Source: Methanococcus voltae (lineage in GTDB: Archaea > AGJL01 > Methanococci > Methanococcales > Methanococcaceae). Taken from it: a DNA stretch of 64,000 bases. The stretch spans positions 124,001 to 188,000 of the forward strand of contig NZ_JAGGMO010000002.1 in the NCBI RefSeq assembly GCF_017875395.1, in the 5' to 3' direction. Positions 44,455 to 47,143 of the stretch are shown one piece after another. Position 1 is the first letter of the stretch. Every line of letters starts with the position of its first letter. The notes below the pieces were generated by a model. The model did not search any database and was not told the origin of the DNA. It worked only from the letters and a program-made list of their open reading frames with translations. The position numbers were made by a program, and so were the translations under genes.

Positions 44455-44652
44455 TTGGTTAAAATAAAAATAGACTATAATTTCTGTAATGGTTTAGATT
44501 GTGCGGAATGCGTTAATACGTGCCCTATGGAAATATTTGATATATCGGAAGATAAAATAGTAATAGTTAATCAAGAAACTTGCGTATGGTGCAAAGTTTG
44601 TACAGATGTTTGCCCTAACGACTGTATTGCGTTAGACTTTGAATCAGATTAA
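44455..44652 (+). CDS. 2[4Fe-4S] ferredoxin
   Basis: A 65-residue electron carrier with two cluster motifs: CNGLDCAECVNTCP (Cys 11, 16, 19, 23) and CVWCKVCTDVCP (Cys 43, 46, 49, 53). The first has four residues between the first two cysteines rather than two. An extra Cys57 follows. The start is TTG at 44455 behind GAGGAATAAT. It lies downstream of hypC on the same strand. A specific partner is not evident. Confidence 0.88.
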   Translation: MVKIKIDYNFCNGLDCAECVNTCPMEIFDISEDKIVIVNQETCVWCKVCTDVCPNDCIALDFESD

Positions 44653-44734: not shown

Positions 44735-45673
44735 TTAAAATCTTGTAACATTTGGATTTTTTAGAACTCTTTCTACATTCCAAAGTTCGTTTAAAATTTT
44801 AGATGTTAAGCATGTTTTTATTATTGGCACTTTAAAACCTATTGCTAAATGAGCAAAAGACGTATTTTCCGAATCTATCATTGGGGTAATGCCTGCATTT
44901 GTCATGTAATTTATCAAATATTTCATTTCTGTTAATGAACCTGTTGTATACGGGTTTATTTTTGAAATATCGGCTTCTTCATCCATGCTTTCAGTACATA
45001 ACAAACCATCGAAATCTACGACTTCATTGGTTTCTAAATAATCTAAACCTTCTATCCTTTGGTCATAACTGGTTATTTTTGCACCCATTAAAATATCCAA
45101 GTCTTCTTCTTCTGCAATATTTGATATTATTTCAGAAAAGTCGTCTATATTATCAAAAATAGACTTACAGACGAATTCACCATCCATGTTTCTAGATTGA
45201 TATTTAGGATAGATATTTCCAATGATGAATTCATAAATATGTATCATTTCCCCTATTGACTCCGCCATAGGAAATACGATTAATTGATTACCTTTTTTAT
45301 CTGAAGCGATTGGACAACTTACTACAGGCAAATCAGATGATAAAATACCGCCTATGTGTTTAAACATTGGTATATTAATACTGTTTGATGCAGCCCTAGC
45401 AACACTAACTGACGCACTCATTGTAATCATGGGATTGTCAACATTTGTGTCACAAATTATTGCGTCAATGAAATCCTGATCGTATGCTGGATACCCTACG
45501 ATTTCAGGAGCTATTACATTTTCAATGTCTGAAATTACATATTCTGGATTATCCACATCTATAACATCGTATCCTATTCCTTTTTCGGTTATTGTGGATA
45601 TTTTAACCTGAATTTTGGAATTTTTGAATACTTTCTTTGCAGTTACTCTTTTTATAGCTGTTTCATATTCCAA
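44735..45673 (-). CDS. Enolase-like protein without enolase catalytic motifs
   Basis: A 312-residue relative of enolase, about 110 residues shorter than normal. The N-terminus AIKRVTAKKVFKNSKIQVKI aligns with the enolase start but the DSRGNPT loop is gone. GYPAYDQDFIDAIICD and MTMSASVSVARAASNSINIP followed by MFKHIGG match the enolase N-domain strongly. At the C-terminus SFAHLAIGFKVPIIKT keeps the IKT lysine, while the preceding SHRSGE motif reads MIDSENT. Catalysis of phosphoenolpyruvate formation is therefore unlikely. It sits downstream of rpoN-rpoK, where many archaea carry eno. The start is TTG behind GGGGATT. Function is unknown; regulatory or structural roles are possible. Confidence 0.8.
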   Translation of the reverse strand: MEYETAIKRVTAKKVFKNSKIQVKISTITEKGIGYDVIDVDNPEYVISDIENVIAPEIVGYPAYDQDFIDAIICDTNVDNPMITMSASVSVARAASNSINIPMFKHIGGILSSDLPVVSCPIASDKKGNQLIVFPMAESIGEMIHIYEFIIGNIYPKYQSRNMDGEFVCKSIFDNIDDFSEIISNIAEEEDLDILMGAKITSYDQRIEGLDYLETNEVVDFDGLLCTESMDEEADISKINPYTTGSLTEMKYLINYMTNAGITPMIDSENTSFAHLAIGFKVPIIKTCLTSKILNELWNVERVLKNPNVTRF

Positions 45674-45888
45674 ATAAATCCCCTGTTTTGATTTTTAAAT
45701 TATTATGATATCAATATTGATAATAACTTTATTGATAATAAATTAATAGATTGGTAAAATTAGACGAAATAAAGCATGGTTATTAGTTGGTAAATTAATA
45801 TTTGTAAAGTAATAACTAAGAAAATTAATAGAAATTTGAGAAAATTATATGATATATGTGATTATGTAAATAATTGATAATATTGATA

Positions 45889-46074
45889 TTATTCATCTAA
45901 TTTAATAACTTTAGGTTTTTTGATTGTTAAGGGTACAACATCGTTGGTTACCTCTTCAATTGCTAAATCTAAAGAAGAACTACTTTCTGAATCTACAGTA
46001 GTTGGTGCTCCACCAGAAATTTGCAAGGCTCTTGAACCTATTAATCTCGCTTTTTCAAATTTTGTATAGCTCAA
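45889..46074 (-). CDS. rpoK: DNA-directed RNA polymerase subunit K (Rpo6)
   Basis: A 61-residue homologue of Rpb6/omega. SYTKFEKARLIGSRALQISG contains the conserved KYE-R-x-IG-xRALQ-type core that clamps RpoA'. The C-terminal IKKPKVIKLDE is the family tail. The start codon is TTG at 46074 behind GGGTGATTTT, 39 bases after rpoN. A Ser-rich loop (SESSSSLDL) is mildly unusual. Confidence 0.92.
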   Translation of the reverse strand: MSYTKFEKARLIGSRALQISGGAPTTVDSESSSSLDLAIEEVTNDVVPLTIKKPKVIKLDE

Positions 46075-46113
46075 AAAATCACCCGCACGTAATTGTGAGT
46101 AATAGTAAATTAT

Positions 46114-46320
46114 TTATTTATATTCCATAACATCGTCAAATAAATCTTTTTCGTTTTGTAATCTGTGAGATGCAAACATTCTTCTACAACAGTATTTTGT
46201 GATTTGCAAGTCATCTAAAATATCATCTGGTTTTTCCCCATTACTAAGTCTTTCGTGGTATTCTTCGTATACTTCAGAAACGACAGTTCCACAAGAAAAG
46301 CATCTAACCGGAAACATCAT
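46114..46320 (-). CDS. rpoN: DNA-directed RNA polymerase subunit N (Rpo10)
   Basis: A 68-residue zinc-binding subunit homologous to Rpb10. MMFPVRCFSCGTVVSEVYEE has the CxxC pair and KYCCRRMFASH the second CC pair, the complete zinc-bundle signature. It starts at ATG ATG behind AAGGTGATAAC; either Met is possible. It is separated from rps9 by 418 bases, unusually far for this normally tight operon. Confidence 0.95.
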   Translation of the reverse strand: MMFPVRCFSCGTVVSEVYEEYHERLSNGEKPDDILDDLQITKYCCRRMFASHRLQNEKDLFDDVMEYK

Positions 46321-46738
46321 GTTATCACCTTTTGCCGGTAATTATTAAGTGTTTAAAGTGTATTGATTCTCATTAATATTTATTAAGCTATTATTTATTA
46401 ATATCTATTTTAGGATACATATTTATGATACATATGTTTTACATTATGTTTTATATTACCAAGTATTTAAAATTATAATTGTTAACATTACGTTAATAAA
46501 GTTAAATCTGATAAAAAACTTAAAAACTTAAAATCTAAAGCTTAAAACTTAGTAAACCATAATTTCTCAATATATTATTATTTTACTAATTGAAATGGAC
46601 ATTAATGACCCAATAAACTTAATAAGATTAATAATAGTAAAATCTAAAACTTAAAAATCAATAATTATTCAATATATGACTAATTCATAATTAATTTAAT
46701 TCATAAAAGTAAAATCTAAAAGATAAATAGTAAATAAT
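46321..46738. other. Long gap inside the ribosomal/RNA polymerase gene string
   Basis: About 418 bases between rps9 and rpoN on the minus strand. It holds two diverged copies of a segment beginning AAATCTAAA-CTTAAAA (near 46530 and 46640) and a pair of GATACATAT repeats near 46415-46440. No ORF or RNA gene is visible. A separate promoter for rpoN-rpoK is likely but I cannot fix its box A with confidence. Confidence 0.5.
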
Positions 46739-47143
46739 TTATCTGTATGATTTTTGTCTTTTAGCTCTTGGACCTTTTGAAGACTTACTTGGTTTGTGTG
46801 GTTCAGTTCTTCTTGCGTCACTAACTAACATTGTTCTGTCGTAAGCTAAGTACTTATCTTTTAATTCGAGGTTTCCTACGAATTCTACGATTGCTTTACC
46901 TAAAGCAGTTCTTGCTGCTTCTGCTTGACCAACAGCACCGCCACCTTTAACGTCGATGTCGATGTTAATGTTGTTTATTTCTTCACCAGCTAAGATAACA
47001 GGTTCCATTAACTTCATTTTTAAGTATTTGGATTCTGTTAATTCTATAGGCTTTTTGTTAATTCTAATTCTTCCGTTTCCTTCTTTAGCAGTAGCTCTTG
47101 CAACTGCAGTTCTTCTTTTTCCTACTGTATTGATAACTTTCAC
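46739..47143 (-). CDS. rps9: 30S ribosomal protein S9
   Basis: A 134-residue S9/uS9. [20 protein letters not shown] opens the domain, [20 protein letters not shown] is the family signature, and it ends in a basic tail with KRQKSYR that reaches the tRNA P site. The start is GTG at 47143 behind GAGGTGATTT, 16 bases after the rpl13 stop. Confidence 0.96.

Follow-up and report, generated by a model that had tools for sequence, protein, structure and literature searches.

An enolase-like gene lies directly behind rpoK

The window analyzed here is a 64,000-nucleotide stretch of the Methanococcus voltae genome (contig NZ_JAGGMO010000002.1, positions 124,001 to 188,000). On its minus strand, rps9, rpoN and rpoK are followed, directly downstream, by an open reading frame encoding a 312-residue protein. 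The features of the locus are as follows:

44735..45673, minus strand: coding sequence (312 aa) of a probable dead enolase paralog (arCOG01170-like); open reading frame with TTG start, stop included; supported by orthologs and dN/dS
45678..45684, minus strand: ribosome-binding site AGGGGAT, 5' of the TTG start; a similar motif precedes the GTG/TTG starts of orthologs
45344..45673, minus strand: N-terminal enolase-like domain, residues 1–110; from Pfam match, alignment and predicted structure
44738..45343, minus strand: reduced barrel domain, residues 111–312; from alignment, predicted structure and Foldseek
45889..46074, minus strand: rpoK (Rpo6), RNA polymerase subunit, immediate upstream neighbor; from the ORF list and ortholog loci
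46114..46320, minus strand: rpoN (Rpo10), RNA polymerase subunit; from the ORF list and ortholog loci
46739..47143, minus strand: rps9, ribosomal protein S9; from the ORF list and ortholog loci
44455..44652, plus strand: ferredoxin gene (fdx), downstream, convergent here and on the same strand in other species; from the ORF list

A first-pass annotation had described an enolase relative at 44735–45673 that lacks the catalytic motifs. This description holds: the reading frame is exact, and DSRGNPT, SHRSGE, GGxHA and GDEGG are all absent from the protein. The product is strongly acidic, with a pI of 4.4 and a net charge of about −23, and every member of the family that we tested falls within a pI of 4.3–4.5 and a net charge of −22 to −27.

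The neighborhood is largely constant among orthologs. rpoK is directly upstream wherever the flank of an ortholog extends far enough, and rps9 and rpoN also lie upstream in all loci except one short contig. Downstream, fdx, hypC and a DedA gene keep their order as well in most loci. Because hypC and the DedA gene are conserved neighbors too, genomic position is weak evidence for a role, and because the distance to rpoK ranges from 31 to 599 bp, with 215 bp in the window and the maximum in one relative, co-expression with rpoK stays hypothetical.

The intergenic regions of the locus have features of their own. Many Methanococcales carry a tRNA-Pro(GGG) gene in the rpoN–rpoK interval, as do the second order described below and one genome with an operon enolase (loci L005, L006, L018, L028, L060, L061, L092 and L066); it is missing from the 39-bp rpoN–rpoK gap of the window (46075–46113) and from the close relative L003. 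The gap between rps9 and rpoN (46321–46738) is 418 bp long and AT-rich, with imperfect repeats such as ttttagattttact. In M. maripaludis, in which RpoN is MMP1326 (PMC6705878), an internal terminator at the rps9–rpoN junction adjusts the levels of RNA polymerase subunits, and growth is slower when it is mutated (PMC10450193). We found no discussion of the enolase-like gene downstream of rpoN in the available portions of these two papers.

The gene is under strong purifying selection

An ortholog is present in 34 of 36 Methanococcales genomes, covering all five genera. The exceptions are a draft assembly of 86% completeness with no match (G014) and a genome (G024) whose one match apart from the working enolase is a 31-residue fragment. 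All seven genomes of the genus carry the gene, at 60–98% identity. A profile query also matched Methanothermococcus and Methanocaldococcus records (for example, LR792634.1), unlike a single-protein query of genome contigs, which found nothing. Orthologs with an assignable start use GTG or TTG, not ATG, and a conserved ribosome-binding motif (AGGGGAT, GAGGTGGAT or GAGGTAGAT) precedes the start. Across ten species pairs, dN/dS is 0.04–0.13, about as low as for rpoN. This is a real protein gene under strong purifying selection.

The dN/dS values, together with near-universal conservation, lead us to reject a decaying pseudogene. A slowly decaying and functionless relic, kept in place by its essential neighbors alone, would agree with the loss of catalytic residues and with the variable gap to rpoK, but it is hard to reconcile with such low dN/dS values and with a frame that is open, with no internal stops, in every listed relative from five genera; we regard it as extremely improbable.

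The protein has an enolase fold that lacks the active site

Library searches with the window protein returned convincing matches only to enolase-type families, all below cut-off: Enolase_N (PF03952) at 21.4 bits against a Pfam cut-off of 35, the enolase (phosphopyruvate hydratase) family TIGR01060 at 41 bits against 300, and NCBIfam NF006223 (PRK08350, ‘hypothetical protein’) at 60 bits against 624. Enolase_N was matched by 30/30 aligned Methanococcales members and Enolase_C by 0/30, and a sequence search of solved structures gave matches to enolases in the N-terminal domain only. A profile comparison of the reduced copies with intact rpoK-linked enolases, by hhalign, spans the full length (E = 5e-22). 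The resemblance to enolase is far beyond chance, and the protein has both parts of an enolase-type fold, N-terminal domain and barrel, which speaks to homology and not to activity.

To follow the active site, we aligned 33 reduced copies and 25 working enolases from Methanococcales with four working enolases and seven reduced copies from the second order and 17 intact enolases of the archaeal lineage (residues in yeast enolase numbering). The alignment runs the full length of the protein, and the enolase Mg-ligand set and E211/K345/H373-R374-S375 are missing from it. In the N-terminal domain, the DSRGNPT segment and the SGASTG substrate loop are deleted. In all 33 Methanococcales copies, the positions of the substrate loop, H159 and E211 are deleted or not conserved as a catalytic residue, H373-R374-S375 is deleted, and the Mg ligands D246, E295 and D320 are not conserved as a set, with Glu or Asp at some of these columns within gapped regions. 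The K345 column holds Asn, Glu, Tyr, Asp or Phe, and the E211 column is mixed. The first-pass annotation had listed the C-terminal IKT as kept. It is present in the window protein, but its lysine (K396) does not count as a preserved piece of the active site, because the column is Arg in 30 of the 33 copies and Lys is confined to the three species in the clade to which the window belongs. By comparison, the catalytic set is retained in 29 of 30 control enolases, drawn from 29 other archaeal genomes. The residue losses indicate that the 312-residue protein is probably a catalytically dead paralog, a pseudoenzyme.

Could the barrel instead have been retained as an enzyme with a new reaction? In favor of this, several positions that are not enolase positions are strongly conserved, namely Asp-Tyr-Leu-Glu (211–214), Phe-Asp-Gly (221–223) and Pro-Tyr (241–242). 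Yet enolase-superfamily chemistry is defined by three acidic Mg-ligand positions, and these are lost, as are the general acid/base positions and the substrate loops, and the barrel is eroded, which makes this an improbable explanation.

One further enolase-like gene came to light in these comparisons. It encodes 419 residues (L097:1802-3058, minus strand; also L129, G089:C9:21807-22661) in an archaeal genome with an intact enolase besides, and its E168 and E211 columns hold Asn and Asp. It is possibly another, independent pseudo- or neo-enolase.

An AlphaFold2 model built on 43 aligned sequences reached a pLDDT of 92 and a pTM of 0.89. An earlier model from 30 Methanococcales sequences only had a pLDDT of 77 and a pTM of 0.68; the rise to 92 came with the addition of intact and Thermococcales-type rows, of which the intact ones may bias the model toward enolase. 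All top Foldseek matches in the PDB are enolases (TM 0.76–0.84), including MJ0232, the working enolase of M. jannaschii (PDB 2pa6), at a TM of 0.84 by query length, and the model thus bears out the enolase fold anticipated by the first-pass annotation. In the model, the N-terminal domain comprises three strands followed by helices at 43–58, 66–75 and 81–98. The same annotation had stated that much of the barrel was lost, and the loss indeed comes to about 100 residues relative to rpoK-linked enolases, including the catalytic loops; all eight barrel strands, however, are still predicted (117–124, 130–135, 194–199, 212–214, 224–227, 236–239, 263–267 and 284–286). We numbered strands and helices by comparing the secondary structure of the model with the alignment; on this assignment, barrel helices 1, 2, 6, 7 and 8 are present, helix 3 is reduced to a single turn, and neither helix 4 nor helix 5 is there. 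The model therefore shows the fold of enolase with its active site gone, and a barrel that lacks consecutive helices is an unusual structural case.

The reduced copy groups with operon enolases

Two Enolase_N matches occur in the genome, with no third copy. Besides the window protein, there is one intact enolase on another contig (G000:C3), the separate full-length enzyme that a pseudoenzyme at the rpoK locus would call for; it keeps DSRGNPT, GGEHA, GDEGG, IEDP, GDDL, KVNQ, SHRSGE and IKTG. Several other archaeal families encode, right after rpoN and rpoK, a complete enolase of about 420 residues with intact motifs, which upholds the earlier view of this site as an archaeal eno position.

Profile scores place the Methanococcales reduced copies closer to these rpoK-linked enolases (E = 5e-22, as above) than to Methanococcales working enolases (2e-12), and the second-order copies closer to operon enolases (3e-50) than to working enolases (5e-27). 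Trees agree: both reduced groups, Methanococcales and Thermococcales-type, form long branches and side with the operon enolases, also when either group is kept alone. The approximately unbiased (AU) test rejects a clade of Methanococcales reduced copies and Methanococcales working enolases at p = 0.026, a modest value for a group with a long branch, and it rejects the corresponding second-order clade at p = 4e-7. On the basis of the profile scores and the AU test for Methanococcales, we reject the idea that the protein is a decayed duplicate of the working enolase in the same genome. The reduced copy probably belongs, on the strength of these comparisons, to the lineage of the operon enolase in rps9-rpoN-rpoK-eno. 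It shares with that enzyme its locus, its place in the tree and its best profile match among intact enolases, and differs from it in length and in having lost the catalytic residues. MJ0232, although of the same fold, is of the working type, and Methanococcales working enolases form a separate intact lineage that is not beside rpoK.

The association of such paralogs with rpoK is not new. Makarova, Wolf and Koonin (2015; PMC4390880) placed rpoK-linked enolase paralogs in arCOG01170, branches 3 and 4, and proposed that they lost the glycolytic role and kept only an ancillary function; the core idea has thus been known since 2015. Like those paralogs, as described in the parts of that paper available to us, the gene studied here occurs beside Rpo6 (RpoK) in the lineages of Methanococci and Thermococci, evolves fast and is additional to a working enolase. 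It is an in-place paralog of the kind described there for Methanococci, and its position and lineage make it a likely member of arCOG01170. The text of PMC4390880 contains none of the words ‘active site’, ‘catalytic’ or ‘truncated’, and in its available parts we saw no structure or selection analysis of the reduced copy. Our literature search found no functional study of it and no report of a partner, of expression or of a phenotype, with nothing relevant under MJ0198, MMP1327/1328 or PRK08350. To this, our analysis adds explicit evidence that the active site is lost, that the barrel is reduced, that erosion differs between lineages, that dimer contacts are rewired and that the gene is under purifying selection.

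A second order retains a differently eroded copy

A reduced counterpart of 341 residues and a working enolase are both present in 61/61 genomes of a second order (family f7), which we take to be Thermococcales by inference from NF006223 and PMC4390880. The counterpart is directly behind rpoK in all seven loci examined and is followed by a gene for ribosomal protein S2, identified by eye, in the three loci where the downstream side was read. It matches NF006223 (PRK08350, 341 aa) in full. One Methanococcales relative aligns with NF006223 over most of its length, and the window protein does so in two stretches. By alignment, erosion has taken different courses: the second-order proteins keep helices 3–4 and K345 and have lost the part from GGxHA to GDEGG, and NF006223 appears to keep helices 3–5 at least in part and has lost more around helices 1–2, whereas the 312-residue window protein has lost helices 3–5. 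The two are related but separate subfamilies. Because both branches are long, the two reduced groups may be sisters or may have arisen in parallel, and the two archaeal orders possibly lost operon-enolase activity independently.

The two orders also differ at the dimer interface. We take R8, E20 and R414, from yeast enolase, to be the residues of the dimer salt bridges. All three are kept in 7/7 second-order reduced copies. In 33/33 Methanococcales copies, E20 is replaced by Met, Lys or Arg, R414 by Asn, Asp or Glu, and E417 by Arg, and in nine of these sequences Lys and Asp occur together at E20 and R414; the Methanococcales working enolase keeps both E20 and R414. This pattern suggests that one order has conserved the dimer contact and the other has rewired it.

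These contacts bear on the idea that the reduced copy is a regulatory subunit, which forms mixed dimers with the working enolase and tunes its activity or location. Such a role would fit with both proteins being universal or nearly so in two orders, and with the salt-bridge residues retained in the inferred Thermococcales. In Methanococcales, however, a mixed dimer would pair Lys or Met with Arg, and the Lys and Asp pairs look more like a swapped homodimer contact. We consider this idea unlikely.

The reduced copy as a candidate protein scaffold

Among moonlighting enzymes, enolase is a classic case, and in many archaea its gene adjoins those for RNA polymerase subunits and ribosomal proteins. 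The first-pass annotation had suggested a regulatory or structural role for the reduced copy; such a role is conjectural. We favor, at a probability of about one half, a reading in which the in-place copy keeps a non-metabolic job as a protein-binding scaffold while an intact enolase elsewhere performs metabolism. The operon enolase ancestor in rps9-rpoN-rpoK-eno would already have had an additional non-metabolic function. In Methanococcales, the second, intact enolase would carry the glycolytic and gluconeogenic activity, and the in-place copy, having lost its metal and catalytic residues and shrunk to 312 residues, would have been kept by strong purifying selection to serve as a scaffold and not as an enzyme. 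Its retained role would most likely lie in the production or assembly of RNA polymerase or ribosomes.

Two features point to a protein, more than to RNA, as the binding partner: the acidic make-up of the molecule and the barrel face exposed where helices have been lost. Such an uncovered face should need a partner. Direct RNA binding, or a part in a degradosome-like complex such as the E. coli RNA degradosome, of which enolase is a known subunit (cited in the available text of PMC4390880), would suit a gene that adjoins gene-expression genes. Strong acidity in every member tested argues against direct RNA binding, even if a local patch could still bind RNA, and E. coli enolase itself binds RNase, not RNA (PDB 2fym). 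We give this alternative little credence in its direct form; a protein-mediated version of it would be part of the scaffold explanation.

A more far-reaching form of the scaffold explanation is tentative and, in our judgment, rather doubtful: both orders would have stripped the operon enolase, possibly independently, down to its role in gene expression, and in Methanococcales the bare face of the eight-stranded barrel, which lacks helices 4–5, would be permanently covered by a partner from RNA polymerase or ribosome assembly. If true, the long-suspected non-glycolytic function of enolase would stand isolated, in a gene that could be deleted without touching metabolism. Since metabolism depends on the enzyme, a second role of enolase is normally hard to test. 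In this case, evolution has apparently separated the two jobs, so that, with enolase activity left in place, the in-place copy may be deleted, tagged and pulled down in Methanococcus maripaludis or Thermococcus kodakarensis.
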